A stretch of 64,000 nt of DNA, from assembly GCF_000177635.2 (NCBI RefSeq), contig NC_014836.1, positions 1,934,001 through 1,998,000 on the forward strand. Reading direction: 5' to 3'. Shown piece by piece: positions 15,489 to 30,958 of this stretch. This DNA is from Desulfurispirillum indicum S5. GTDB taxonomy: Bacteria > Chrysiogenota > Chrysiogenetes > Chrysiogenales > Chrysiogenaceae. Below the pieces are notes generated by a model. The model made no database searches. It was not told the DNA's origin and saw nothing but the letters and a program-made list of their open reading frames with translations. Every line of letters begins with the position of its first letter. Within the stretch, counting starts at the first letter, position 1. A program made the translations under genes and the position numbers.

Positions 15489-16205
15489 ATGGAAAAGCGC
15501 GAAAAGCTCTACGAAGGCAAAGCCAAGATTCTCTACGCCACCGATGACCCCAACCTGATCATCCAGTACTTCAAGGATGACGCCACCGCATTCAATGCCG
15601 AAAAAAAGGGCACCATCATCAACAAGGGAATCATGAACAACCGCACCAGTGAAATCATCTTCAATTTCCTGGAGAACCATGGCGTCCCCACCCATTTTGT
15701 CAAAAAGCTCAACGACCGCGAAATGCTCTGCAAGAAGGTGCAGATCATCCCTGTGGAAGTCATCACCCGTAATATCGTGGCCGGTTCCCTGGCCAAGCGC
15801 CTGGGAAGCGAAGAGGGCGTTCCCCTGGCCAAGCCCGTGGTGGAACACTGCTACAAGAGCGACGCCCTGGGCGACCCCTTCATCAACATCTACCACATCG
15901 ACGCCATGGGCTGGGCCACCCGCGAACAGATGGCCACTATTGACGAGCTGTCCCTGAAAATCAACGCTCTGCTGGTCAACTACTACCGCGATATCAATAT
16001 TAAGCTGGTGGACATGAAGCTGGAGTTTGGCGTGCACAAAGGCCAGATCATCCTGGCTGACGAAATGTGCCCCGACACCAGTCGCCTGTGGGACGCCACC
16101 ACCAACGAGAAGATGGATAAAGACCGCTTTCGCCGCGACCTGGGTAAAATCGAGGAATCCTACGCTGAAGTGGTGCGCCGCATCGAAAGCCGGGGTAACA
16201 AGTAA
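15489..16205 (+). CDS. purC: Phosphoribosylaminoimidazole-succinocarboxamide synthase
   Basis: A 238-residue SAICAR synthetase that joins CAIR with aspartate using ATP in purine synthesis. Signature stretches are KLYEGKAKILYAT at the N-terminus, EVITRNIVAGSLAKRLG, KLEFGVHKGQIILADEMCPDTSRLWD (ATP and metal site, shown by its parts) and KDRFRRDLG. Its length matches the bacterial short form. GGAG lies 10 nt upstream of the ATG. Its TAA shares one base with the purS ATG, so it heads a translationally coupled purC-S-Q-L operon. A 145-bp gap before it holds no feature I can name. Confidence 0.96.
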   Translation: MEKREKLYEGKAKILYATDDPNLIIQYFKDDATAFNAEKKGTIINKGIMNNRTSEIIFNFLENHGVPTHFVKKLNDREMLCKKVQIIPVEVITRNIVAGSLAKRLGSEEGVPLAKPVVEHCYKSDALGDPFINIYHIDAMGWATREQMATIDELSLKINALLVNYYRDINIKLVDMKLEFGVHKGQIILADEMCPDTSRLWDATTNEKMDKDRFRRDLGKIEESYAEVVRRIESRGNK

Positions 16206-16453
16206 TGCTGGCTCGCGTCTATGTTACCCTGAAAAATGGCGTCCTGGATCCCCAGGGCAAGGCTATTCTCGGCTCCCTGCAGGATCTGGGATTTGAAGAT
16301 GCCTCCGACGTGCGCGTCGGCAAATACATCGAAGTCCAGGTGGACGCCACCAGCGCCAGCGCCGCCAAAGAGCGGGTGGCCCAGATGTGCCAGAAGCTGC
16401 TGGCCAACACCGTCATTGAAAACTACCGCATTGAAGTGACGGAGGAATCATGA
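16205..16453 (+). CDS. purS: FGAM synthase subunit PurS
   Basis: An 82-residue protein of the PurS family: ARVYVTLKNGVLDPQGKAILGSL followed by DVRVGKYIEVQVDA. PurS dimers bridge the glutaminase PurQ and the synthetase PurL and help channel ammonia in formylglycinamidine ribonucleotide synthesis. It shares one base with purC and overlaps purQ by 4 nt. Its presence marks the three-subunit form of the enzyme found in Gram-positives, archaea and several non-gammaproteobacterial lineages. Confidence 0.95.
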   Translation: MLARVYVTLKNGVLDPQGKAILGSLQDLGFEDASDVRVGKYIEVQVDATSASAAKERVAQMCQKLLANTVIENYRIEVTEES

Positions 16454-17115
16454 ATGTTGGCGTAGTGGTCTTCCCCGGCTCCAACTGCGACCACGACTGT
16501 GACTATGCCGCCACCCTGGCCGGTGCCAATACCCGCTTTATCTGGCACAAGGAAGGCTCGGTGGGCAACGTGGACGCCATCATCCTGCCCGGTGGCTTCA
16601 GCTACGGCGACTACCTGCGCTGTGGCGCCATTGCCAAGAACAGCCCCGTCATGGCCGACGTCATCCGCTTCGCCTCGGAAGGACGCCCCGTCATCGGCAT
16701 CTGCAACGGTTTCCAGATTCTGCTGGAAAGTGGCCTGCTGCCCGGAGCCCTCATGTGCAACAACACCCTCAGATTTCTTTGCAGAAATACCAGCCTGCGA
16801 GTGGAAACCACGCGCACCCCCTTCACCCGCAAGTACCGCCAGAGCCAGGTGATCAACGTGCCCGTGGCCCATCACGACGGCAGCTACTACGCCGATGAGC
16901 ATACCCTGCAGTACCTGGACGCCCACGACATGGTGGTCTTCCGCTACCAGGACAATCCCAACGGCTCCCTGGGCGACATCGCCGGCATCTGCAACGAAAA
17001 GGGCAATGTGCTGGGCATGATGCCCCACCCCGAGCGCGTCGTCTCCCCCGAGCTGGGCGGCACCGATGGCGCGCCCCTCTTTGAATCCCTCCTTGAATAT
17101 GTGGTGAGCCTATGA
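16450..17115 (+). CDS. purQ: FGAM synthase glutaminase subunit PurQ
   Basis: A 221-residue class I glutamine amidotransferase. It has [15 protein letters not shown] at the N-terminus, the nucleophile cysteine in GICNGFQIL, the catalytic His and Glu in MMPHPERVV, and the oxyanion segment [18 protein letters not shown]. It releases ammonia from glutamine for PurL. Overlaps of 4 nt on both sides keep it coupled to purS and purL. Length is normal for the stand-alone subunit. Confidence 0.96.
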
Positions 17116-19340
17116 GTGCCCAGGAAAAAACCGTCAGCGTTGAGCTGGCCATGGAATTCGGCCTGAGCCGCGAAGAGTACGACAAGATACTCCAGATCAT
17201 GGGACGCACGCCCACCCTCACCGAGCTGGGTATCTTCAGCGTCATGTGGAGCGAGCACTGCTCCTATAAATCCAGCCGCATCCACCTCAAGGGCTTCCCC
17301 ACCGAAGCTCCCTGGGTGGTACAGGGCCCCGGCGAAAACGCCGGCGTCATTGACATCGGCGACGACGAGTGCGTGGCCTTCAAAATCGAGTCCCACAACC
17401 ATCCCTCGTTCATCGAACCCCTGCAGGGCGCAGCCACCGGCGTGGGCGGCATTCTGCGCGACGTCTTCACCATGGGTGCGCGCCCCATCGCCGCCATGAA
17501 CTCCCTGCGCTTTGGCGAGCTGGATAACCCCAAAAACCGTTACCTCTTCAGCGGCGTGGTCAAGGGTATCGGCTGGTACGGCAACTGTTTCGGCGTTCCC
17601 ACTGTGGGCGGCGAAGTGTACTTTGACGACCAGTACAGCACCAACCCCCTGGTCAACGCCTTTGCCCTGGGGTACGTGAAAAAGGACAAAATCTTCCTGG
17701 GCCGCGCCGACGGCGTGGGCAACCCCGTCATGTACGTGGGCGCCAAAACCGGTCGCGATGGCATCCATGGCGCCACCATGGCCTCCGCCGACTTTGACGA
17801 GAACTCCGAGGAGAAGCGCCCCACGGTTCAGGTGGGTGACCCCTTCACGGAAAAACTCCTGCTGGAAGCCTGCCTGGAGCTGATGCAGACCGATCATATT
17901 ATCGGCATCCAGGACATGGGCGCCGCCGGACTCACCTCCAGCTCCTTTGAAATGGCCGACCGCGCCGGTATGGGCATTGAAATGTGGCTCGACAACATCC
18001 CCTGCCGCGAAGAGGGTATGACCCCCTACGAGATGATGCTCTCCGAGTCCCAGGAGCGCATGCTCATGGTGGTGCGCCAGGGCAGCGAAGACGCCGTCAA
18101 GGCCATCTTCGCCAAGTGGGATCTGGACGCCGAAGTGGTGGGCCGCGTCACCGACGATGGCCGCATGCGCATCATCTGGCAGGGCCAGACCATGGCCGAC
18201 CTGGAAATCAAACCCCTGGTGGAAGCTGCCCCCATCTACGACCGCCCCTACAAGCGCGGGGCCTATCTGGATGAGGTGCAGAGCTTCGACTTTAACACCA
18301 TCCACGCTCCCGCTGACCTCTCCGATACCCTGCTGCGCCTGCTGGGCTCTCCCACCATCGCCTCCAAGGAGTGGGTCTACCAGCAGTACGACCACCAGGT
18401 TCGCACCAACACCGTCATTCTGCCCGGCTCCGATGCCGCCCTCGTGCGCATCAAGGGCGGCAAGAAGGGCGTAGCCATGACCACCGACTGCAACAGCCGC
18501 TTCTGCTACCTCAACCCCTATGAGGGCGGCAAGGCCACGGTCGCCGAAGGCGCGCGCAATATCGCCTGCTCCGGTGCCAAACCACTGGCCATCTCCGACT
18601 GCCTCAACTTCGGCAACCCCCAAAAGCCCGAAACCATGTACCAGTTTGTGGAGTGCGTGCGGGGCATCAAGGACGCCTGCCGCGAGCTGAACATTCCCGT
18701 CATCAGCGGCAACGTCTCCCTCTACAACGAAACTTCCGGAAAGGGAGCCGTCTACCCCACCCCCACCGTCTCCACCGTAGGACTGATCGAAGACATTGAC
18801 CTGCGCCTTACCCAGGACTTCAAACAGGCCGGTGACCACATCTTCCTGCTGGGAGCCACCCGCGAGGAGCTGGGCGGCAGCGAATACCTGAAGGTCATCC
18901 ACGGCCTTATCACCGGTGACGCACCCCATGTGGACCTGAAAGAAGCCCGCGCCCTGGTGGAAGTGCTGCAGCAGCTGGCCAGGCTTCGACTCCTGCAAAG
19001 CGCCCACGACTGCAGCGAGGGTGGACTGGCCGTAGCCCTGGCGGAGTGTTCCCTGAGCTCCCGGCAGCGCATTGGCTTCAGCGCCAGCCTGAGCCCCAGC
19101 ATGCGCACTGACGCCCTGCTCTTCGGGGAAAGCCACTCCCGCGCCGTCGTCAGCGTCAGCCCTGAAAAACTCACCGCCTTCCGCGAAACCGTGGGCAAGC
19201 AGATTGCGTGCGTCCATATCGGCGTCGTTGGCGGCGACTCCATGAATATCCGCGTCGGCGAAGTTCCCATGATAAGTGTTCCCATGGAAAAAGCCTTGTA
19301 CGCTTACAAGTACGCCATCCGCGATCTGATGGAGCATTAA
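17112..19340 (+). CDS. purL: FGAM synthase synthetase subunit PurL (small form)
   Basis: A 742-residue ATP-dependent synthetase of the small PurL class. It has the N-terminal substrate motif [12 protein letters not shown], the nucleotide stretch [36 protein letters not shown], and a second, pseudo-symmetric half with [29 protein letters not shown] and GNVSLYNET. It makes formylglycinamidine ribonucleotide from FGAR using ammonia from PurQ. It ends the operon, 27 nt before a strong terminator. A very long antisense open frame across it is a codon-bias shadow. Confidence 0.96.
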
Positions 19341-19366
19341 AAACGTTCCATTGCGCATAACATCCA

Positions 19367-19406
19367 CAGCACCTCCCGGGTAATCGCGGGAGGTGCTGTT
19401 TTTTTT
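19367..19406 (+). terminator. Rho-independent terminator of the pur operon
   Basis: Stem CAGCACCTCCCG pairing with CGGGAGGTGCTG around a short loop, then eight T residues. It is one of the strongest terminators in the window. Confidence 0.92.
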
Positions 19407-19450
19407 GCCACGTTCTCCTTTAACCCCTTGATGGGGGAAGCCGATTTGAG

Positions 19451-19479
19451 TTGAGAAAATTTCATTCCCTTGCGATAAT
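19451..19479 (+). promoter_or_regulatory. Candidate sigma-70 promoter of the B12-sensor cluster
   Basis: TTGAGA (19451-19456), 17 bases, GATAAT (19474-19479). The predicted start near 19486 leaves a leader of about 155 nt before the first gene. I looked there for cobalamin-riboswitch landmarks and saw none. Confidence 0.45.
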
Positions 19480-19641
19480 GGCACAAAGGTAACACTGCGC
19501 TGGTATCAATCATGTTGTCACTCATTAGCCTGTTTTCAGGAGAGATCTTCGACAATACCGCCTGAATCCTACAGAGCAAGAGTTTGCAATGCGCTTTTCC
19601 TCCCTCCGACAGCCCTTTACACGGAGACGCCTGGTGCTGCT

Positions 19642-20340
19642 ATGAATCCTCAAAACAACCCACACTCACCCATATCGCGTCAACCTGACGCCGTGATAAT
19701 CCCGGAGACCAACTACCAGGCTTTCCTGAAAGTTTTGCTACAGGGGGATCGCTCTTCCTGCCACACCCAGGTAGAGAGCATGCTGAGACAGGACACACCT
19801 ATACGAGCCATCTATGTTGAGCTCTTTCAGCGTGCGCTTTATGAGGTCGGTGCCCTGTGGGAAACCAACCGCATTTCCGTTGCCGTTGAGCATCTGGCTA
19901 CTGCAATTGTGGAAAGCCTTCTCGGCACCATATACCCACGCCTCTTCGCAGCAGAGCGCACCGGCAGAAAAGCCGTCGTTTCCTGCGTAGCTGGCGAATA
20001 TCATCAAATCGGCGGGCGCATGGTTGCAGATACCTTTGAAATGTGTGGATGGGATGGATACTTCCTTGGAGCCAACACCCCCATGGAGGAGCTCTGCCAC
20101 ATCCTTCTTGAAAAAAAACCAAACATGCTGGCACTCTCCCTGAGTGTCTTCTTCAACCTGCATCACCTGCACACGGCCATTGCGAGGATCCGCACAGACA
20201 TGCCCGAAATCCCCATCATTGTCGGCGGCCAGGCATTTCGCTGGGGCGGACGGGATATCGGGAGCACCTATTCCGGAGTGCGCTATATTCCCACCCTGCA
20301 GCATCTCGAAAGAGTACTGCACCAGGAGTACGCCCCATGA
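19642..20340 (+). CDS. Cobalamin-binding sensor protein with CarH-like W-x9-EH motif
   Basis: A 232-residue protein with two parts. A four-helix cap (about residues 25-105) contains LWETNRISVAVEHLATAIVE, in which Trp73 is followed nine residues later by Glu83-His84. This W-x9-EH signature is known from the adenosylcobalamin photoreceptors CarH/LitR and related B12-binding-2 domains. A Rossmann-type B12 domain (about 110-225) has GEYHQIGGRMVADTF with His121 at the lower-ligand position (ExHxxG in place of DxHxxG), GANTPMEELC and IPIIVGGQAF. No DNA-binding or enzyme domain is attached. It overlaps a histidine kinase gene by 4 nt, so it probably presents a B12 (or haem, as in SCHIC domains) signal to that kinase. 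Ligand and light response are inferred. Confidence 0.8.
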   Translation: MNPQNNPHSPISRQPDAVIIPETNYQAFLKVLLQGDRSSCHTQVESMLRQDTPIRAIYVELFQRALYEVGALWETNRISVAVEHLATAIVESLLGTIYPRLFAAERTGRKAVVSCVAGEYHQIGGRMVADTFEMCGWDGYFLGANTPMEELCHILLEKKPNMLALSLSVFFNLHHLHTAIARIRTDMPEIPIIVGGQAFRWGGRDIGSTYSGVRYIPTLQHLERVLHQEYAP

Positions 20341-21473
20341 AACATGACATAGGCACCCCGCTGCTCCATCACATCATGGAGCGCAGCGCCATGGCAGTGC
20401 TGGTACTGGACCGCGAAGGACGTATTCTGGAAACAAATAGCTACGCGAAAAGCCTAGTAGGCCGTGACATCCTTCGCCTCTTCCTCTCGGAAGTCATACT
20501 GGACTTCTCCAGCACCTTCTGCCTGAAAAGCTGCCTCCAGAACAGTAAAGATTCTTACCTCCTCAACCTTCCTTCAATAGACGGTTTGGCCCACACTCTG
20601 TACTTTCGCTTTTACGAAGAAGCTGAATACATTCTTGCCATAGGTGAGCAGCATCACGAAGAAATCAACCTGCTGCGCAAAAACATGATTGACCTGAACC
20701 ACGAGCTCGGCAATGCCAACCGGGACCTGCAAAAAAAACACGCTGAACTGGAAAAGCTCAATGAGTTAAAAAATCAGTTCCTCGGCATGGCGGCTCACGA
20801 CTTGCGCAACCCCATCGGCACCATCATGACCTTGAGCGATTTTCTGTTGGAAGAGGCCTTTGAGCATCTGAGCAGCGAGCACATCCATTTCCTGACGATG
20901 ATTCGTTCCTCAAGCGGCTTTATGCTGAATCTCCTCAATGACCTTCTTGACATAGCAAAGATTGAAGCAGGCAGGATGGGACTGAATATCACGCCCGTCA
21001 ACCTGGAGACCCTTATTGAAAAAACCCTGGCTTTCCAGCGATTTCAGGCCCGTAAGAAGCGTGTCGAACTGGTTTTTTCCTGCTACGAACAGCACCCCAT
21101 GGTACTCGCCGACAGCCTCAAGATTGAGCAGGTACTCCAGAATCTGCTGACCAACGCCATCAAGTTTTCTCCCCCGGAAGGGAAGGTCACCGTCAATCTC
21201 TTTGGCAGCCAGGGACACCTGACGGTTGCAGTAACAGACCAAGGGCCAGGAATACCCGCAGATCAACTATCCAATATATTCAAGCCTTTTTCCCGCGATG
21301 TCCCCCCCGCTCCTGAAGGAGAAAAGGGTACGGGACTTGGACTCTCGATAGTACAGAAAATTATCCTGGCGCATCGGGGCAGTATCTGGGTGGAAAGCAA
21401 ACCGGGAGAAGGAACGTCATTCCTTTTCGCACTGCAGGCGCAACCACACGAAGATGCCCCGACAACCCAATAG
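20337..21473 (+). CDS. PAS-containing histidine kinase
   Basis: A 378-residue soluble kinase with no membrane segment. A divergent PAS fold covers residues 8-105 (AVLVLDREGRILETNSYAKSLVG), a coiled linker about 105-145 (NRDLQKKHAELEKLNELKNQ), the HisKA domain has His154 in MAAHDLRNPIG, and the HATPase domain shows the N box LLTNAIKFSPP, DQGPGIP and GTGLGLSIVQKI. It should autophosphorylate and pass phosphate to a receiver, most simply the one encoded at 22112. Coupling by a 4-nt overlap to the B12-binding protein suggests the two form a split photoreceptor/kinase pair. The PAS pocket ligand is unknown. Confidence 0.88.
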   Translation: MKHDIGTPLLHHIMERSAMAVLVLDREGRILETNSYAKSLVGRDILRLFLSEVILDFSSTFCLKSCLQNSKDSYLLNLPSIDGLAHTLYFRFYEEAEYILAIGEQHHEEINLLRKNMIDLNHELGNANRDLQKKHAELEKLNELKNQFLGMAAHDLRNPIGTIMTLSDFLLEEAFEHLSSEHIHFLTMIRSSSGFMLNLLNDLLDIAKIEAGRMGLNITPVNLETLIEKTLAFQRFQARKKRVELVFSCYEQHPMVLADSLKIEQVLQNLLTNAIKFSPPEGKVTVNLFGSQGHLTVAVTDQGPGIPADQLSNIFKPFSRDVPPAPEGEKGTGLGLSIVQKIILAHRGSIWVESKPGEGTSFLFALQAQPHEDAPTTQ

Positions 21474-21550
21474 CCTGCTTGCCGGAATACCCTCCAGCAG
21501 CTGGCTCAAAATCAATTACCGCCGCATACGAGGTCATTGTGAAAAACCAG

Positions 21551-22030
21551 ATGAACGCGCACGACTTACTGCAAGCAGCCAGACATATTCCGCCCCCATC
21601 GCAAGCCAGCGCTGAAGAGTACGCCAGTCTCTGCGAGATTCTTTCAGCCAGCGTGACCCGCTCCATGCTGAACTCTCCTCACATCGCGGAGCTGATCGGA
21701 GGCTCGGCACATCAGGATATGATGGCTGAAAACCATCGCAATCATGGGCTGTTTCTCTGTGTTCTCTTACGCCACTATCAGGCAGAGTACCTGGTAGACA
21801 CTGTACTCTGGGTATACCGCGCTTATATGAGCCATGGATTCCAGCGCCTCTACTGGCAGGTGCAGCTGGAAACCTGGCAGAACATCCTACAGGAACACCT
21901 CAGCGACAAGGCATATCGAGAGATTTCCCCCATATACCAGTTCCTGCTGCATCACCAGGACGATTTCGCCCGACTGAGCCAGGAAGTGCATCAGGAAAGT
22001 ACCAACTTCCACCGGGAGTTTCCAATCTGA
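21551..22030 (+). CDS. Helical protein of unknown function in the B12-sensor cluster
   Basis: About 159 residues from the ATG at 21551; TTG 21479 or GTG 21539 would add up to 24. Predicted almost wholly helical, with no membrane segment or signal peptide. It is rich in His, Tyr and Trp in the middle: AENHRNHGLFLCVLLRHYQAEYLVD, then VLWVYRAYMSHGFQRLYWQ and QFLLHHQDDFARLSQEVHQE. The arrangement looks like a globin-like or four-helix ligand-binding bundle, but I do not recognise a family. It sits between the kinase and the response regulator, so a role in sensing or phosphotransfer is possible. There is no HxxKG phosphotransfer motif. Confidence 0.65.
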   Translation: MNAHDLLQAARHIPPPSQASAEEYASLCEILSASVTRSMLNSPHIAELIGGSAHQDMMAENHRNHGLFLCVLLRHYQAEYLVDTVLWVYRAYMSHGFQRLYWQVQLETWQNILQEHLSDKAYREISPIYQFLLHHQDDFARLSQEVHQESTNFHREFPI

Positions 22031-22111
22031 CACCCTCCTGTCTACCACCCCAGGGTGAATTGTCACTGCCTGGGCAAACACGCAACCATGAACACTCAAG
22101 GAGTACACCTG

Positions 22112-23560
22112 ATGCCCGCAATACCTGAACCCGGAGACAGCACACTGCCTGCACTGTTCTCCATACTGTACGTGGAAGACGACCCATCCATTACCGTTCT
22201 CTATGAGCGCATGCTTCAGCACCTGGGCTTTCAGCGCATCCTGAGCGCGGCAGATGGAGAAGCCGGTCTGCACCTCTTTGAGCAGGCACGCCCCGATATT
22301 GTGCTTTCCGATATCATGATGCCCAAGATGGACGGCCTCGACATGGTGCAGCGCATCAAACACATCAGCCCTGAAACTCCCATCATCATGGCCACTGCCT
22401 TTAGTGAAAAAAACTTCCTTATGCGCTCCATTGAAATCGGCGTCGATCGCTATATCGTCAAGCCCATTGACCGTAAACAATTCGACTCCACCCTCCTGGG
22501 CGTATGCCGCACGCTTTATCAACAACGCGAAGCGGAAGAGTACGCGAAACGCAAGATTCAGATGCGTATCAACAAAGCCACCGCAAACACCCTGAGCGAA
22601 GTGGCGAATATCTTCCCCAACCCCACCATCATCTACGGAAGCAACGGTGAAATACACTTCATCAACGACGCCTTCACCATGATGTTCGAAAACACTGATC
22701 TGGAAATGCTGAGCAGCCGAAAAACAACCCTCGACCAGTTATTCCTGAAACGCCCTGGCTTCCTGAACAGCCTTGAAAGCTTCCACCCCGAAGATACCCT
22801 TGCGAATCGCGTCCTGGTGCGAAAAAATCACATAAACACCATTTACCAGGTCAACCGTCGTACCATCGTTCTGGGCGAAAACCAGGAGCACTGCCAGGTA
22901 TTCAGTTTCACCAATGTCACCCGCCTTGAGTATGAAAAACATAAAAGCCAGAACCTGGCCCGCCTGCTGCGAGAGGCCATTAAAGTCCGCATGCCCGCCC
23001 AGAAGACCACCGCCACAGAAACCACACCCGCCAGCTCTGCCACACCCCTGCTCAGCAACGCTGAACTGGCGGTCCTGCGACGCAGCCACCTGCATAAAAC
23101 CCCTGCCAGTGAATACATCAACGGCCTTGATGAAATTGTCATTGGTCAAGTGGAAGAGCTGGCGGAAGTAGACTTTGAATTAGAGGAGCACCTTATTGAG
23201 CTGGCGCGAACCCCCAATCGAGAATACCGGGAACTGATCGCAGCAGATATGGAAAAGTACGCCCGGGCCATGCGGCAGCTTGTGGACTTCAACGACCTGG
23301 CCTTCGCCCTTGAGCAACTGGGAGAACTCATTCGCTCCATTGCCCCCCAAGCCATCAACATCAACAAGTTTATCGTCCTTATGGACAGCGTCCGTAAAGA
23401 TCTTGCCGACTGGCGACAGATGATCTTCATCACCCGTGAAGCCCTGGATATCCACTACCTTGACAGTTCGCTTTTCAGCTCCTGCCTGCAGATTCAACTG
23501 GATTTCGCGCCAGGTGACAGCGATGGCAATGACGGAACCGGCGACCTGGAGCTTTTTTAG
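22112..23560 (+). CDS. Response regulator with receiver, PAS and a C-terminal helical output domain
   Basis: A 482-residue protein. The receiver domain covers residues about 10-135: ILYVEDDPSITVLYERML, phospho-Asp in DIVLSDIMMPKMDGLD, and Lys in RYIVKPIDRKQ. A PAS-like domain follows (VANIFPNPTIIYGSNGEIHFINDAFT), then a low-complexity Thr/Ala/Pro linker (TTATETTPASSATP). The unfamiliar C-terminal helical region ends DIHYLDSSLFSSCLQIQL and a short acidic tail. This tail resembles response regulators of epsilon- and deltaproteobacteria whose output is not known. ATG 22112 is chosen for AAGGAG 8 nt upstream; ATGs at 22055 and 22088 lack a site. Likely the receiver for the kinase at 20337. Confidence 0.82.
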   Translation: MPAIPEPGDSTLPALFSILYVEDDPSITVLYERMLQHLGFQRILSAADGEAGLHLFEQARPDIVLSDIMMPKMDGLDMVQRIKHISPETPIIMATAFSEKNFLMRSIEIGVDRYIVKPIDRKQFDSTLLGVCRTLYQQREAEEYAKRKIQMRINKATANTLSEVANIFPNPTIIYGSNGEIHFINDAFTMMFENTDLEMLSSRKTTLDQLFLKRPGFLNSLESFHPEDTLANRVLVRKNHINTIYQVNRRTIVLGENQEHCQVFSFTNVTRLEYEKHKSQNLARLLREAIKVRMPAQKTTATETTPASSATPLLSNAELAVLRRSHLHKTPASEYINGLDEIVIGQVEELAEVDFELEEHLIELARTPNREYRELIAADMEKYARAMRQLVDFNDLAFALEQLGELIRSIAPQAININKFIVLMDSVRKDLADWRQMIFITREALDIHYLDSSLFSSCLQIQLDFAPGDSDGNDGTGDLELF

Positions 23561-23604
23561 CAGCATACGGAAATCATCGCCCTGACAGTACAGCTGCCTT
23601 CCCC

Positions 23605-23632
23605 TTGACGAAAAAATATTTACGGGTACTAT
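23605..23632 (+). promoter_or_regulatory. Sigma-70 promoter of a short transcript
   Basis: TTGACG (23605-23610), 16 bases, TACTAT (23627-23632). With the terminator at 23919-23946 it defines a predicted transcript of about 305 nt. Confidence 0.5.
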
Positions 23633-23807
23633 CAGAGCAGTAGCCCAGGCGGTCAGAATGCACTTCCCTGCAACGGACCTCCCTTAGTGGCTGCGCCAAT
23701 CACGTTCCCGGAGATGAGAAATTGCATGTCTGTTCATTTCACCAAGAGCCCCGCAAAGTGAATACGATTTAAAATGAGCAGATGGAGATGATCAAATAGA
23801 TACAACC

Positions 23808-23912
23808 ATGATAATCGTGCTTGTCATGGCCATTATATGGTTTGACAGCATTGCCTCTTTGGTGGCCAGACACCTTTTTCGCCGCAACAACCGGAAAAAA
23901 GAAGACAAATAG
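23808..23912 (+). CDS. Micro-ORF, 34-residue hydrophobic/basic peptide
   Basis: Encodes MIIVLVMAIIWFDSIASLVA followed by a basic tail (RHLFRRNNRKKEDK), that is, one short membrane helix with a positive cytoplasmic end. It ends 7 nt before a terminator. The nearest Shine-Dalgarno-like GGAG is about 18 nt upstream, so translation is uncertain, and the RNA itself may be the product. The region 23640-23800 before it holds no other frame I can support. Confidence 0.45.
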   Translation: MIIVLVMAIIWFDSIASLVARHLFRRNNRKKEDK

Positions 23913-23918
23913 GAATAA

Positions 23919-23946
23919 AGCGGCGGGAAGAACCCGCCGCTTTTTC
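23919..23946 (+). terminator. Rho-independent terminator
   Basis: Stem AGCGGCGGG / CCCGCCGCT with an AAGAA loop and TTTTT. It ends the short transcript carrying the 34-residue micro-ORF. Confidence 0.9.
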
Positions 23947-23965
23947 TTTGGAGACACTGAGATCA

Positions 23966-23994
23966 TTGACAGGGGCGACCGATTCCCCTAACTT
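23966..23994 (+). promoter_or_regulatory. Candidate sigma-70 promoter of the rhodanese gene
   Basis: Perfect TTGACA, 17 bases, TAACTT, located between the preceding terminator and the rhodanese gene. The implied leader is about 33 nt. Confidence 0.5.
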
Positions 23995-24033
23995 CAGGCA
24001 TGGCCAATCAAGCATATACCACAAGGAGAGCCT

Positions 24034-24465
24034 ATGCCTCGCGTCCTTCTCATTTTCCTGACCATGGGTCTGTTTCTGCTCGCCAGTGCTGCCAGCGCCA
24101 TGGCGCAGAACATACCTGAGCTCAACGCAGACGACATAAGAAAACGCCTTGGCGAGCCCGGTTTTGTCGTGGTGGACACCCGCACCAACCAGGAGTACCT
24201 CCGCGGACACATCACCGGAGCCATCAACATCAGCTCCCAGGAATCCCGCATGTACCGCGATATCGCCCGTTTCCTGCCCCAGGACAAAAACACGAGCCTC
24301 GTCTTCTACTGCCGTGGCGAAACCTGCAGCCTGGCACCCGACGCTGCCATGGCCGCCTTTCGCGCAGGTTACCGCCACGTCTACACCTATCGCGGCGGCT
24401 ACCCCGACTGGCAGAGCAAAGGGTATCCGGTCAGCACCGCTGACAACAACACGATCCGCAACTGA
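24034..24465 (+). CDS. Exported rhodanese-like protein
   Basis: A 143-residue single-domain rhodanese with a signal peptide (residues 1-24, cleavage after ASAMA). Domain landmarks are FVVVDTRTNQEYLRGHITGAINI and the active-site loop YCRGETCS, where the first Cys would carry a persulfide. GGYPDWQSKGYPV closes the fold. Periplasmic rhodaneses move sulfane sulfur, for example in polysulfide or thiosulfate respiration. A specific role cannot be read from this monocistronic setting. AAGGAG sits 7 nt before the ATG. A perfect stem without a T-run (24484-24518) follows. Confidence 0.88.
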   Translation: MPRVLLIFLTMGLFLLASAASAMAQNIPELNADDIRKRLGEPGFVVVDTRTNQEYLRGHITGAINISSQESRMYRDIARFLPQDKNTSLVFYCRGETCSLAPDAAMAAFRAGYRHVYTYRGGYPDWQSKGYPVSTADNNTIRN

Positions 24466-24483
24466 AGTTTTCTTGCGTGGAGA

Positions 24484-24518
24484 GGCCACCTTCGACCCCT
24501 GATGGAGACTCGAAGGTG
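24484..24518. terminator. Inverted repeat between rhodanese and PKD lipoprotein genes
   Basis: GCCACCTTCGA and TCGAAGGTGGC form an 11-bp perfect stem around a 13-base loop in the convergent intergenic gap. With no T-run in either direction it is a weak terminator candidate or a protein site. Confidence 0.45.
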
Positions 24519-24572
24519 GCATTCAGTTTGCGCGCGTCAATAGCTCCTGGAATCAGCCAGACCGTTCAGCAC

Positions 24573-27188
24573 TCAATCCCTCCACGCGCTTGCTCTAATG
24601 AGGCAGCTGTCAATAAACTGCCCCGTTTCCACAATGCGAAATGACAAATCAAAGTTATAGTTGTTTGGGTAAGAGGTACTAACATATGACGCATACTGGT
24701 CACCCTCCGGCAGGGCGGGAATCCAGAAGCGCACAGCTGTGCCGGCCTCGGTGATGGTGTCGCCATTCTGGATACCCAGAATGCTCGGAGACGGGATAAC
24801 CGCTGCCAGCTCTTCGTTCCTCGCCACCAGCTGCAGGTCTGCGATGGTATAAGCCTGGCCCTGGCCGGCGGTCAAGCGGATATGCTCATCAATCGTCCAA
24901 CCGCCTGCCTGATTCATCTCGATCAGGGTTGGAGTATTCTCTCTGCTCTGCCTTGCACAGGTGCCGCTGGTAGCACTTCCAATCGTTCCCTCGGGCAGGC
25001 TGCGGTCGTTCCATTGGTCATCTGCCAGTCGTAATACTATCTGCTCCCCATCAGCTTCTATTCTTTCCATCAGAACGCCAGGCCAGTTACCGTCCTCACG
25101 ACTGTGAACGGTAAAGCTGAGGTACTGAGGCAAAGCTTCCTCCAGGCCATCGCTGGCCTCAACCTTGATGCGATACAAACCTGGTTGGTTAATGTTCTCC
25201 AAAGCCGCCGCAGAATCGGGTTCAGTTCCTGATTCCAGTCTGCCCCACAAACTCAGCTCCGCGGTACTGTCCGCAGGCTGTTCCTCAAGGGTCCAGTTGT
25301 AGTACAGCCGGTCACCATCCGGATCAAAGCCCCCCGCCAGCATGTTCACCGCCGGGAGAATCTTTCCCTCGGCAAGCACCACGGGTGAATAGAGGCCCTG
25401 CTGACGAACTCGCCCCAATTGATGTAATCGGACACCACCACTGTGTGTAAAGCCAGGATTCAGCACGGGCGCATGGTTCTGTTCTTTCGCCAGAATCGTG
25501 GCGGTCTTCAATGAGGTGGCGTGATTCTGACGGCTTACCTGCCAGGGAACCGAGACGGCACCCTGGCTGTCGGTCACTGACAAGGCGGCAATGTAGGCAC
25601 CGGGCACATCCGGGATAAATTCCGCCCGCGACATGGTGGCCGTACCATCAAGAAAGTCGGTGTTGCTGCCTACCGGCCTTTCAATCCAGCTCCACTGCCA
25701 GAAAATCTGGTCATCATCGGGGTCATAGGATTTGGTACCATCAAGCAGGACAACCTGTCCGGTCAAAGCAGTCGAAACGGGCACCACGACCTCTGCAACG
25801 GGCCTGGTATTTGCCAGACCGCCCACTGACGCCTGGAGGGTGATTTCCAGAGGTTCGCTGTCCTCGTGACCATCGTTGGCAACGATGCTGACCGTATAGG
25901 TACCAGGCGCCGCAATGATAATGCCCTGAGGGTTCCAGTTTAAGGGATCCGTATTGCCAGAAGGTTTTTCCAGCCAGGTGTAGGTGAAGGTCAGAGTATC
26001 GCCGTCGATATCATAGGCATCAAACCAGTCCACGAGGCGATGGATAACGTTTGCTTCCACATAAGTCGGTTTCGTATTGGCGACGAGAACTGGTCTGGTG
26101 TTGGGCGCATCCTCTGGCTTCGTGACAATGACCTTGGCAGTGGCTGGCTGGGAACGGGAGAGGCCATCATGGACGTGCAGTTCAACATACCAGGTTCCAG
26201 CCATATCGGGAATAAAACTCGGAGTGGCGCTGCGAGCGTCGGTCAGTTCCATGACCTGCGACCCGGTTGGCACAATAGGAAAAGTCTCATATTCACCGAC
26301 AAAGCGCCAGGAGTACGCAAGGTCGTCACCGTCGGCATCGGTACTGCCCGTGCCATCCAGGGTGACGGTTTCACCGCGATTGACACGATATACACGATCA
26401 CTGCCTTCCTGTGTACCGCCCACATCGGCGACCGGGATAGCATTCACTGCGGATATGTCTATCTCGACATGTGCTGGCGCACTGTAGGTATCGCCATGCC
26501 GTACAACCAGCGAAACGGTATAGGTGCCTTCGGCATCGGCCAGAAAGCGGGGGTTGACTGCGGTAAAATTATCCAGACTGGTGTCACTGGCAGCAGGCAC
26601 TGTCAGGCTCCACGCATAGGTTAATTCGGCGGCATCACCGTCGGTAGGCGCTGCGCTGTGGCTGCCGTCCAGCTGCACCCAACCCAGGTAAGCGGTGGAC
26701 GGAACCGGGGTGATGACCGCAACCGGTTCGGTATTCGTCGCATTGATGGTCTGGCGGGCATGGGTGCTGGCTCTGCTGTCCGCAACCTGTACATTGACCT
26801 CATAGGCTCCAGGCAGATCGGTGTACAGTTTGCGTATGGCATCATTCATACAGTCTGCACTTTCGGCAGGCTGTTGCTCTTCTTCTCCTTCGCCGTCTTG
26901 CGATTCCTGCGCACTGTGCAGCTCAGACTCTTCGCACACCAGGGTGACGGTGCTGCCAACAGGCTGACTGAGCAGGGTCCAACTGTAGCTCAGGCTGTTG
27001 CCAACACCTGGCGTGCTGCCGCTGGCATCAAACAGGACGCTTTCGCCCATGGGCAGACTGGTGCGGTCGCTTGAGAGCACGGCGACAGGGTCTTCAGGAG
27101 TACTGCTGCTACTGCTGCCACAGGCACTCAGGAGCAGCAGACACAGGGTGGTGAGTACTATAAGGCCGGCAGACGCAGAATGATTCAT
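24573..27188 (-). CDS. Large surface lipoprotein with about six PKD-like repeats
   Basis: An 871-residue protein. The lipobox is LLLSAC (Cys near residue 22), followed by a serine-rich linker, so it is an outer-membrane lipoprotein. Six PKD/Ig-like repeats of about 90-110 residues can be seen by their PVAxx starts and YxW motifs: LSYSWTL, LTYAWSL, LAYSWRF, FTYTWLEKP, WQWSWIERP and YYNWTLEEQP. A unique C-terminal domain follows, with two Cys. ATG 27188 has AAAGGA upstream; an open frame extending to 27371 crosses the receptor remnant and IS end and is not used. It lies 48 nt after the TonB-receptor remnant on the same strand, so it probably acts at the surface with that receptor, perhaps delivering its substrate. 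Ligand unknown. Confidence 0.82.
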   Translation of the reverse strand: MNHSASAGLIVLTTLCLLLLSACGSSSSSTPEDPVAVLSSDRTSLPMGESVLFDASGSTPGVGNSLSYSWTLLSQPVGSTVTLVCEESELHSAQESQDGEGEEEQQPAESADCMNDAIRKLYTDLPGAYEVNVQVADSRASTHARQTINATNTEPVAVITPVPSTAYLGWVQLDGSHSAAPTDGDAAELTYAWSLTVPAASDTSLDNFTAVNPRFLADAEGTYTVSLVVRHGDTYSAPAHVEIDISAVNAIPVADVGGTQEGSDRVYRVNRGETVTLDGTGSTDADGDDLAYSWRFVGEYETFPIVPTGSQVMELTDARSATPSFIPDMAGTWYVELHVHDGLSRSQPATAKVIVTKPEDAPNTRPVLVANTKPTYVEANVIHRLVDWFDAYDIDGDTLTFTYTWLEKPSGNTDPLNWNPQGIIIAAPGTYTVSIVANDGHEDSEPLEITLQASVGGLANTRPVAEVVVPVSTALTGQVVLLDGTKSYDPDDDQIFWQWSWIERPVGSNTDFLDGTATMSRAEFIPDVPGAYIAALSVTDSQGAVSVPWQVSRQNHATSLKTATILAKEQNHAPVLNPGFTHSGGVRLHQLGRVRQQGLYSPVVLAEGKILPAVNMLAGGFDPDGDRLYYNWTLEEQPADSTAELSLWGRLESGTEPDSAAALENINQPGLYRIKVEASDGLEEALPQYLSFTVHSREDGNWPGVLMERIEADGEQIVLRLADDQWNDRSLPEGTIGSATSGTCARQSRENTPTLIEMNQAGGWTIDEHIRLTAGQGQAYTIADLQLVARNEELAAVIPSPSILGIQNGDTITEAGTAVRFWIPALPEGDQYASYVSTSYPNNYNFDLSFRIVETGQFIDSCLIRASAWRD

Positions 27189-27235
27189 GACATTGTCCTT
27201 TTTCGTTGGGGTTATCAATAAACAGGAGCGGCTGG

Positions 27236-27345
27236 CTAAAAATGCAGGGTCATGCTCAGGCGGGCGGTGCGGCCTGGAGCAGGCACCAGACCCAGGCTGA
27301 GAGCATCGAGGTAATACTGGTCGGTGAGGTTGTCTATATTGAGAG
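27236..27345 (-). pseudogene. 3' remnant of the TonB-dependent receptor, cut off by the IS
   Basis: The minus strand here encodes LNIDNLTDQYYLDALSLGL, then VPAPGRTARLSMTLHF and a stop. This is the typical last beta-strands and terminal aromatic residue of a TonB-dependent haem receptor. It is in the frame that would follow the truncated receptor if the IS were removed. Loss of these strands and the C-terminal Phe should prevent proper barrel assembly by the BAM complex. Confidence 0.85.
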
Positions 27346-28263
27346 CTTGTCCATAAATAATTATTGACCATTATGATAGTTTGCTATAGAATGATTCAGT
27401 GAGAGATCATTCATGGCGGTGATTTATGTCTAAAGTGCAATCATGGGAAGTCTCAGATGCTTTCTGGCAAAGAGTTGAGCCTTTGCTGCCAATCCAGCAA
27501 AGAGATCCTGACAAGACCTACAAACGCAAGCCTGGTGGCGGACGGAAGCGACTTGACCCCAGAATGGCGTTTTCCGGCATTGTCTATGTGCTGCGCACCG
27601 GTTGCCAGTGGAAAGCCATACCCAAGGAGCAGTTTGGTTGCGCCAGTGCCGTGCACAAGTACTTCATTGAGTGGAGTAAGGCCGGTGTATTCGAAGCTAT
27701 TTGGCGTCAAGGGCTGGCTGAGTATGACGAGATGGAGGGAATTGCCTGGGAGTGGCAAAGCATAGATGGCGGAATGTACAAAGCACCAATGGCTCTTGAA
27801 ACCGTAGGGAAGAACCCGACGGATCGGGGAAAAAACGGGAGCAAGCGTCATGTCCTGGTGGACGGTCGTGGCGTCCCGTTGTCCATCGTCGTAACCGGAG
27901 CGAACCGGCATGATGTGAGCCAGCTTGAAGCTGTTCTTGATGGCGTAGTCTTCGAGAAGCCTGCAGAGCAGGAGCAGCATCTTTGCGCAGATTGTGGCTA
28001 CAAGGGAAAGCAGGCGCTCAGCAGCATTCTTCAGCGCGGATACATACCCCATGTAAAGCAGCGAAAAGAAGAGATCGAGGACAAGAAGCGTGACCCATCA
28101 AAGAAGGCGAGGCGCTGGATAGTGGAAGCATCTATTTCCTGGTTCAACCGTTTCAGGAAGATTCATGTGCGCTTTGAGAAGCTTGAGGTCACTCACTACG
28201 GGTTGACGTGTCTTGCGGCAGCCATAATCACATACAGGAAAATCGGCGTAATTTATGGATAAG
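27346..28263 (+). mobile_element. IS5-family-type insertion sequence, 918 bp
   Basis: Ends are imperfect inverted repeats CTTGTCCATAAAT (27346-27358) and ATTTATGGATAAG (28251-28263), with one mismatch. One transposase gene fills the element, and its stop codon overlaps the right repeat. The IS interrupts the TonB-receptor gene. Joining the sequence on either side restores that gene's frame. No target duplication longer than about 2 bp can be called. The intact ends and intact transposase suggest a recent insertion. Confidence 0.88.
27426..28262 (+). CDS. IS5-type DDE transposase
   Basis: A 278-residue single-ORF transposase. The N-terminal DUF4096-type region (SDAFWQRVEPLLP, GGGRKRLDPRMAFSGIVYVL, TGCQWKAIPKE) and the DDE core are both complete: Asp in SIDGGMYKA, Asp in HVLVDGRGVPLSIVVTGANRHD, and Glu in RRWIVEASISWFNRFRKI. 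It catalyses cut-and-paste movement of the element. No frameshift is present, and expression would be from the left end, where a weak TATAG-like sequence lies. Confidence 0.92.
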   Translation: MSKVQSWEVSDAFWQRVEPLLPIQQRDPDKTYKRKPGGGRKRLDPRMAFSGIVYVLRTGCQWKAIPKEQFGCASAVHKYFIEWSKAGVFEAIWRQGLAEYDEMEGIAWEWQSIDGGMYKAPMALETVGKNPTDRGKNGSKRHVLVDGRGVPLSIVVTGANRHDVSQLEAVLDGVVFEKPAEQEQHLCADCGYKGKQALSSILQRGYIPHVKQRKEEIEDKKRDPSKKARRWIVEASISWFNRFRKIHVRFEKLEVTHYGLTCLAAAIITYRKIGVIYG

Positions 28264-30958
28264 TTCTGAAATCCAGCGTTACCCACTCATTGGGCTGATA
28301 ACTGGCGAACAGGTCGTATACCTGATAGCTGTGCCACTGCACGGGGGGGGCAAACACCCCTCGAGTATCATTGTTATACAGCGGCTCCTGGTTGCGCTTT
28401 CCCATGAAGGTGCCACGCGCACCCAACTCCAGCTTTTCTGCAAACAGCCGAACTCCAAGCTCGGCGCTGGCATTGTGATTCGGGGGGATCATATTGTTGA
28501 CATAGCTGGCACCAAGGCCATAGTCGGTGCACTTTTCGCGGCGACCTGTGCCCTCATGGCAGAGCTCGATTTCGGTATACCGGGTGGCGCTTACACCAGC
28601 AAAAAGCCATCTCAGATCGTATTTTGCCGATACCTCAAAACCATGAAAGCTCGCACTCTCGATATTGCGCAAACGGAACTCTTCACTCAGAGCGTATGGA
28701 TTGCCCTCCCCGGCATTAATCATGGTGCGGGTAATGTAATCTTTCGTTGTGTTCTGAAAAGCGGCAAACTTCAGACGCACTCTATCTGAGCCGACGAAAA
28801 CCCCGTCACGCAGCAGATTCACCCCCAGTTCCCTGCTTTCGGTTCGCTCAGGCTTGATGGGAATATCCATTGCGGGCTGCACAGAGAAGCCGAGGCTGCT
28901 TTCAAACAGGCTGGGCATTCGCACACCACGGGCATAGCGCCCATAAAGCTGCAGGCCTGTGACAGGCTCCCAGGTCAGGCTGGTAAGTGGTGCTGTACCA
29001 TGGTGGCTGTTCTCGAACTGGATATAGGTGGTCTCCGGATTGGACCTCTCCAGACACACTCCGTCTTCGTCAAACTCCAGACAGGTCACATTATCCCTGT
29101 AATGGCCGTCCCCCACATGGGTCGCCAGAAGATTGCGGTCTTTGGATGTGAATGCGATGGAGCGAATTCCGGCATCAAGGGTCAGTGTTGGTGCAAACTG
29201 CCATTTGGTGGCGACAAAGGCACTGTACTCTTCGCGCCTGGCATCGCGCCCGTAGCGCACGTCCTCACTCTGCCAGGCACCGCCATAGCGCAACTGAAGA
29301 TCATTCGCGCCATAAAAATCCATCGTGTTGGTGATATCAGCACCCCAGCGCTGGTACTCTTCAGGAATAGCCCAGCTTGTCAACGTCTCACCGATACTGC
29401 CCATCTCGTCATCTTCAAACTGATAGAGGCGATTGAGTGTCTCGGATCTGGTGAGCCAGATATTCAGCTTCATGTTGAGCCAGTCATGGTCGGGATCCCA
29501 GTGATAGCGACTGCTGTAGGTATCCGTTGTGACAACCGAGCCAACGGTCTGACGCACCGTGCCGAGCAATTGTGATGGCATGATTTCCCCGTGCGCACTC
29601 TCGTAACGCATGTAGCCAAGCTCCCAGCTTTGCGTTTCATCGATATGAAACAGGGCTTTGAAAAGCCAGGTCTGGTTTTCGAAGTTACTGTTCACGATCA
29701 GTTCTTCGCCCCGAAAACGTGTCAAGCCATGAACCTCTGCCTTTACCTCGGTTTCAAATGGATAACGGACGCTTGAAGTTTCCACCCAGGGAACAGGACC
29801 GTGCTTGCCAGCATAATAGTTTCCCTGGCTGCGCTCGGCATAGGCTGCCACAAGGCTGCCCCAGTCAAAACGTCGGGCCAGGGCGACACTGCCGGCCAGA
29901 CTGCGCAGGTCCAGCAAATCAGGGCGATTCATGCTTTCATCACTGGCAAAACTGTCACGCAGCTCCTGAATGCTGCCTGCACAGTCCGAGGTGTCACATT
30001 CATTGTTTTTGAGTGTAAACTCCCCTGAACCCACAAAATACCCTGATGGTGTACCCAGCTTTGCCGGGCTGCCAGAATTGTTTCCCAGCAGACTACCGCG
30101 CAGGCGAATGCCCCACACATTCCCGGGCTTGATAATGTCAGTCGCGTCAATGGTTCGCATGGTGACCATGCCACCAGTGGTCCCAGCACCCTGAGCATCC
30201 ATGGTGGGTCCTTTATCAATGCGAATGCCTCCGATAAGATCAGGGTCCACATAACTGCGGCTGGAAACGCCAGCATAACCACGATAGACGGTGGTTTCCT
30301 GGCGCGCACCATCGACGATAACCGGAACGCGCCCCTGTCCCTGCATGCCGCGAATGTTGACGTCCAGCCCCCCGCTGTTACGGTTCTCCCCGATAAGCAC
30401 GCCGGTTTCTCCCTGGAAGATGTCACCGACAGAGGTGCCACGAAAGCGCTCAATATCGCGTCTGGTAATCACACTGACCGATGCCGGGGTGAGGTATACC
30501 GCATCTTCCTCACGGGTGCCGCGCACATGCACCGGCTCCAGAGCGAAGCTTTCACGGTTGGGTGGCGACTGCAGCATGTCCGGTGTCGAAAGGACTTCAT
30601 CAAAGGGAACTGCCGGAACCACAGGCTCAGCGGCAAACTCGAGGGTGACGACATTGCCGCCGTTGAGGCGCCAGTACAGCCCCGTCCCATCCAGCAGCTG
30701 CTCCAGAGCTTCACCGGCAGTGTGCAATCCACTGACTCCAGGTGAACGAAGACCCTCGACCATGCCGTCTTCCATGAAAATATCCATGCCCGTCGCCAGG
30801 GAGTACTGCAAAAGAGCGCTGCCCAGGGGCTGGGCAGCTATGGAGAAATGGAGGAAGGAGTCAAGGGGACTGTCCTGGGACCAGACGACGGTATTCAGGG
30901 TGATACCGATCAGGGCAATGACGCACATGCGCCGGATCACTGGTTGTAAAAAATGCAT
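28264..30958 (-). pseudogene. TonB-dependent receptor/transducer (haem type) with STN domain, interrupted by IS
   Basis: About 898 codons remain. The order is signal peptide (to WSQDS), an STN signalling domain (FSIAAQPLGSALLQYSLATG to LLDGTGLYWRLNGGNVVTL, about residues 35-105), a TonB-box region, the plug (ASVSVITRRDIERFRG, VNIRGMQGQGRVPVIVDGARQ) and the 22-strand barrel. Barrel motifs such as RYARGVRMPSLFESSLGFSV recall haem/haemoglobin receptors. The frame enters the IS and stops seven codons later. The missing end is at 27236-27345. STN receptors transmit substrate binding through FecR to an ECF sigma factor, and both partners are encoded divergently at 31431 and 31943. AGGAGAG precedes the ATG. 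Haem as substrate is inferred. Confidence 0.88.

Follow-up and report, generated by a model that had tools for sequence, protein, structure and literature searches.

The 64,000-nucleotide stretch of Desulfurispirillum indicum S5 DNA analysed here (the window; contig NC_014836.1, positions 1,934,001 to 1,998,000) carries at 19642-23560 four co-directional open reading frames (ORFs), encoding a B12-binding protein, a histidine kinase, a protein termed HX and a REC-PAS-X response regulator. Our analysis suggests that the B12 protein and HX probably form a split photoglobin-B12 sensory hub, which drives a two-component system. D. indicum S5 is a strict anaerobe isolated from river sediment (PMC3368425), and its genome is one contig of 2,928,377 bp. 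An earlier annotation made from the letters of this DNA, the original prediction, gave the same order and frames, which the ORF listing bears out. It also described a complete co-directional system. This stands for the B12, kinase and HX genes, but the regulator appears to belong to a separate family that merely lies next to the trio here.

The B12 protein (19642..20340, plus strand, 232 aa) consists of a helical cap and a Rossmann domain, matching B12-binding_2 (E 3.5e-13) and B12-binding (E 1.3e-14). It carries all four motifs of the adenosylcobalamin (AdoCbl) light sensors, G70xxW73, E83-H84, G118xxH121 and G143xxxP147. This GxxW/EH/GxxH/GxxxP signature (SignatureFinder) comes from a survey of light-responsive cobalamin domains, in which it was also tried on new proteins (PMC11796333). 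Each tabulated signature residue is kept in 75-80 of 79-80 relatives; W73 and H121 are present in 80/80, and E83 and H84 in 79/80, so the stand-alone cobalamin protein with Trp73, Glu83-His84 and His121 that had been proposed is well founded. In an alignment made by eye, the MetH encoded by this genome carries F, V and L in place of W73, E83 and H84. Together with the conservation of the trio across phyla, the conservation of these motifs goes well beyond chance. By its signature the domain would be of the light-responsive AdoCbl type, and we infer that AdoCbl is its ligand. The closest relatives in the PDB are photocobilins (E 1.6e-23), with TtCarH at about 2e-8. The assignment to the CarH/LitR type was therefore right about the W-x9-EH motif and the lower-ligand His, but photocobilins are the nearer solved structures. 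No MerR-type DNA-binding domain was found in the protein, which scores 58.5 bits with the CarH model against a cut-off of 400, and the bis-His position of TtCarH (His132) is occupied by Glu74, with E in 76/80 relatives. The split-system B12 proteins form a single clade beside their fused relatives (support 100/98, with long-branch caveats). Two cobalamin adenosyltransferase genes are present in the D. indicum genome. One of them is ~1 kb away from a gene for a DNA photolyase (L155:4140-5570 and L155:6635-7315, about 2,776,100-2,779,300 of the genome's contig C1), a proximity that may possibly tie light repair to AdoCbl supply.

HX (21551..22030, plus strand) is a stand-alone protein of 159 aa when read from ATG 21551; this codon or the alternative GTG at 21539 is most likely the start, rather than the mechanically assigned TTG at 21479. 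No match to HX was found in Pfam, PHROGs or the PDB sequences, and its 67 relatives likewise fall into no Pfam family. The original prediction called it an unknown His/Trp-rich helical protein. It is indeed helical and outside Pfam, but the His-richness is restricted to the D. indicum copy, and the invariant residues of the family are Trp87 and Tyr92. An AlphaFold2 model built from the 67-sequence alignment reached a pLDDT of 94.8; in Foldseek it matched globin-coupled sensors as well as phycobiliproteins, at TM about 0.5-0.63 and with probabilities as high as 1.00. Using profiles, with each E-value coming from a single pairwise comparison, HX matched the globins that make up the N-terminal part of fused globin-B12 proteins (E 1.6e-40); these globins in turn matched the photocobilin globin at E 4.3e-7. 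With the fused proteins included, an initial HX alignment proved too heterogeneous to scan contigs with. In other genomes the relatives of HX sit beside the B12 gene, and in two of them HX is fused N-terminally to the B12 domain. When residues were matched by hand from the alignments, the invariant Trp87 aligned with Trp296 of the photocobilin SasPcob and Asn61 with Asp270; in SasPcob, Trp296 contacts both corrin and biliverdin, and Asp270 is the key residue for biliverdin binding (PMC10979010). Judged by its sequence relatives and modelled fold, HX belongs with the photoglobin/photocobilin globins and is the missing half of the B12 sensor. Because its profile and register link it to the photocobilin globin, the B12 protein and HX together appear to be a photocobilin in two pieces. 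The split system of the original prediction stood; what it overlooked was the globin fold of HX, and with it the second component of a sensor hub that was already known. Haem binding by HX was considered and rejected, since no His is invariant across the family alignment, and haem, which had been offered as a possible cofactor of the system, is disfavoured on the same ground.

The kinase gene (20337..21473, plus strand, 378 aa) begins within the stop region of the B12 gene, in an ATGA that gives a 4-nt overlap, and encodes a PAS-like N-terminus, a coil, HisKA and HATPase_c. Its hydropathy never becomes transmembrane-like (maximum 1.5, 19-residue Kyte-Doolittle), and the kinase is therefore predicted to be cytoplasmic, in keeping with the overlapping cytoplasmic PAS kinase described before. 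The PAS-like and coil region (20361..20770, plus strand) is a module-specific adaptor; at other loci the same domain precedes GGDEF in place of the kinase part. Across 51 loci the third member is a HisKA/HATPase protein in 47 and a GGDEF protein in 4; both have in common the N-terminal ~140 residues, in which the PAS-like stretch is followed by a coil with the consensus LNxELNNLxRELxKKNxELxxLN. Strong matches to the adaptor profile occur almost solely in the module gene, and most of the genomes tested have a single strong copy. A SAR324 genome has a second adaptor-bearing kinase (L141:5518-6669), an orphan or separated copy with no B12 or HX gene within the stretch examined. GGDEF proteins with the module adaptor at their N-terminus (E down to 8e-11) are also encoded at loci where globin and B12 domain are fused, both in Ilyobacter and in a second group. 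On the Ilyobacter polytropus megaplasmid such a protein directly follows the fused globin-B12 protein (L108:2965-5008). In three Desulfotignum metagenome-assembled genomes (MAGs; L057, L076 and L077) an HX-B12 pair precedes two successive effectors that both bear the module adaptor, a GGDEF protein in first place and a histidine kinase in second, a layout that suggests a single sensor pair with two outputs. Divergence of the B12 protein correlates with that of the adaptor (rho 0.70) and less with that of the kinase core (0.54), and the latter correlation nearly vanishes given the adaptor (partial 0.13); shared ancestry is only partly controlled in these values. This covariation points to the adaptor as the probable receiver of the B12/HX signal.

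A scan of 84,980 genomes returned 80 loci, and the phyla of the split system, taken from record titles, number about 15, mostly anaerobic lineages. The B12, HX and effector genes are contiguous and co-directional in 68/83 loci; three arrangements of the genes are seen, at 28, 27 and 13 loci. The remainder comprises 3 fused loci, several at contig ends and a few lone HX genes such as L068. Since the trio stays together through rearranged gene orders, we regard it as a functional unit. A survey of neighbourhoods had been suggested in advance, and the neighbours are conserved. Among the commonest families near the trio, recurrence is confined to response-regulator and PAS domains and a small number of other signalling domains.

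The regulator (22112..23560, plus strand, 482 aa) most likely starts at ATG 22112, which has AAGGAG just 5' of it, and has the three parts foreseen: REC (residues 18-124), a PAS-like middle and a C-terminal helical bundle (23048..23557, plus strand) with a DIHYLD motif and an acidic GDLELF tail. The output domain had been called unfamiliar, and a Pfam search of it indeed gave no match, but it may be a CheA-P1/Hpt-like bundle and it has paralogues in the genome. Compared with CheA P1 in Foldseek, the model of the tail domain (pLDDT 85) gave a probability of 0.63-0.96 and TM(target) of 0.65-0.73, at E about 1-3. No phospho-acceptor His was found on helix B of this domain; the only near-invariant His, H136, is in a loop, and the apparent phospho-acceptor site, judged by eye, holds a Tyr. 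Paralogues elsewhere in D. indicum and in related genomes share DIH(Y/F)xD and a D-L-E-L-F-like acidic tail. These domains make up a small family in this phylum (window 23048-23557; L147 and L151 in the same genome; L145, L148-L150 and L152), with conserved acidic-aromatic C-terminal peptides such as GDLELF and DDLDIFF. Because of these paralogues, and because the gene after the trio elsewhere has a receiver domain in many but not all loci (29/44), the D. indicum regulator appears to be a local partner from a separate family, not a core member. The two-component parts are nonetheless present, a HisKA and HATPase_c kinase and a REC regulator, and the two may be a cognate pair for phosphotransfer. 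We agree with the original prediction in favouring a phosphorelay output over direct DNA binding.

We propose the following mechanism for the split hub. In the dark, AdoCbl would be bound base-off/His-on through His121, with the adenosyl group against Trp73 and Glu83-His84, and HX would dock on the B12 protein in the manner of the globin domain of photocobilins, which is fused there. Under green light the Co-C bond would break (alternatively, AdoCbl would be absent or oxidised), adenosine would leave and the B12/HX assembly would rearrange. The PAS-like and coil adaptor of the kinase would read this change, altering autophosphorylation, and phosphate could then pass to the REC-PAS-Hpt-like regulator. 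HX, probably without binding bilin, would act as a protein coupler or clamp. Because the B12 protein has no equivalent of His132, its light state may be closer to that of photocobilins than to that of CarH. Light is the predicted physiological signal.

Several observations weigh against this proposal. The divergence of HX correlates weakly with that of the B12 protein (rho 0.21) and of the adaptor (0.28). Every Foldseek match of the HX model has E >= 0.001, the direct profile match between HX and SasPcob is weak (E 0.035, probability 1.5%), though in the same register, and the homology of HX to the photocobilin globin depends on an intermediate sequence set. With Glu74, the B12 protein is without the His of the TtCarH light-state bis-His ligation, as are photocobilins. 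None of the neighbouring families hints at a light-related output, and many carriers are sediment dwellers, for which light may be scarce.

A special form of the same proposal is that the hub senses light and oxygen (redox) together, telling an anaerobe that it has entered lit, oxygenated water. CarH combines the two in this way, photolysis giving Co(I)/Co(II) and only O2 completing the reaction to the final Co(III) state (PMC10442372). Since that photochemistry requires O2 to complete, such a readout is plausible in an anaerobe, as D. indicum and most carrier lineages are. However, it is known for CarH alone and operates there through His132, which is absent here, and we consider this form rather doubtful.

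It is less likely still that the B12/HX pair reports the presence of AdoCbl or the form of cobalamin, with the kinase tuning metabolism to cofactor supply. A corrinoid-status sensor of this kind would need the same binding residues, and it would suit a sediment isolate able to make AdoCbl with its two adenosyltransferases. Among the commonest families adjoining the trio there is no enrichment of light-related genes, which also fits. However, B12 synthesis and transport genes are not enriched there either, no riboswitch, of the cobalamin type or any other, was found at gathering scores within 16000-28300, and the motif set was defined on photoreceptive members.

Could HX bind a bilin after all, so that the two genes encode a red/green dual-chromophore photocobilin? 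HX is homologous to bilin-binding globins, the stand-alone BBAG-2 globins that adjoin B12 proteins bind biliverdin (PMC10151467) and haem oxygenase is present in a few carriers. Against this, the position of SasPcob Asp270 is Asn in 86/87 sequences, and none of the CXRD, CXQD and RGMC motifs occurs in 67 HX sequences. Haem oxygenase requires O2. The canonical enzyme (PF01126) was not found in the genome of D. indicum, a strict anaerobe, nor in 55/58 split-form genomes, and was found in 5/6 genomes of one fused-form group; MAG gaps or other bilin routes may account for its absence. Taken together, the missing motifs, the scarcity of PF01126 and the O2 dependence of haem oxygenase make it most likely that HX acts without biliverdin, its bilin site having apparently been lost, and a bilin-binding HX is improbable. 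Most improbable of all is a methyl-transfer regulator, in which the kinase reads the methylation state of a methyltransferase-type corrinoid protein, as the weak similarity of the B12 protein to MtgC/MtaC models is exceeded by that to photocobilins and CarH, the adenosyl-pocket W, E and H are conserved and the commonest neighbouring families include no methyltransferase.

Around the module, a Rho-independent terminator-like hairpin with a T-run (19366..19406, plus strand; 13-pair stem, 9 GC) would end the upstream purL transcript and is a candidate boundary setting the B12 module apart from the pur genes. A candidate sigma-70-type promoter, TTGAGA-17-GATAAT with TG ahead of the second hexamer, lies 5' of the B12 gene (19451..19479, plus strand), and the sequence scan found another terminator-like hairpin 3' of the module (23917..23949, plus strand). 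Promoter-like and terminator-like sites are no more numerous in the region than in shuffles, so these sites are candidates. Further on, the minus strand encodes a large lipoprotein-like protein rich in repeats, next to a transposase-like gene (window 24573-27371 and 27426-28262) and apparently unrelated to the module.

If the split-hub proposal is correct, a sensor that is modular and physically split would wire B12 photoreception to both phosphorelay and c-di-GMP signalling, and would do so in strict anaerobes without known light responses. More tentatively, the loci may represent a class of two-component photoreceptor that is widespread in anaerobes and was not characterised before, in which a bilin-free globin, as a separate coupling subunit, passes AdoCbl photochemistry via the dedicated PAS-coil adaptor to a swappable histidine kinase or diguanylate cyclase. 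Two questions become directly testable: the role of a photoglobin-type protein after the loss of its bilin site, and whether it is light, oxygen or the supply of B12 that anaerobes sense with AdoCbl. The stand-alone parts would also be attractive for building an optogenetic kinase switched by green light.

Among known systems, the photoglobins that carry B12-binding domains (Schneider, 2022) reportedly include a globin/B12 hub tied to signal-transduction proteins. The CXQD motif reported for photoglobins is absent from HX, and the 2022 survey may already include some split loci in its gene neighbourhoods. CarH/LitR proteins share the W-x9-EH motif, the lower-ligand His and the AdoCbl-type pocket, but the D. 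indicum protein differs in its missing MerR domain and His132 equivalent and is nearer photocobilins in sequence. AerR (PDB 7TE2) is likewise a stand-alone B12-binding regulator, an antirepressor without a DNA-binding domain; it targets CrtJ, the literature searched describes no globin or kinase partner for it, and it was not among the PDB matches of the B12 protein at E 0.001. In Myxococcales, the stand-alone BBAG-2 globin gene adjoins a stand-alone B12-binding gene, but BBAG-2 has RGMC, binds biliverdin and is encoded with haem oxygenase/bilin reductase (PMC10151467), whereas HX has no RGMC, sits beside a kinase or cyclase and occurs in genomes mostly without haem oxygenase. Closest are the photocobilins SasPcob and AbDPcob (PDB 8J2W/8J2X/8J2Y; PMC10979010), which pair an AdoCbl light-sensor domain of the same motifs with a globin-fold partner and have the conserved Trp at the corrin-facing position and no bis-His residue. 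In D. indicum the two halves are on separate genes, fused solely in related loci, the kinase that serves as output has an adaptor of its own, the bilin Asp is Asn and canonical haem oxygenase is missing. Globin-B12 hubs with a signalling link and the Myxococcales gene pairs (PMC10151467) were thus already known, and, the photoglobin survey excepted, the literature searched held no description of the split B12/HX/kinase arrangement. What appears to be new against that literature is a family of split globins that lack bilin motifs, are constantly associated with a kinase or cyclase carrying the adaptor, and are widely spread among anaerobes.

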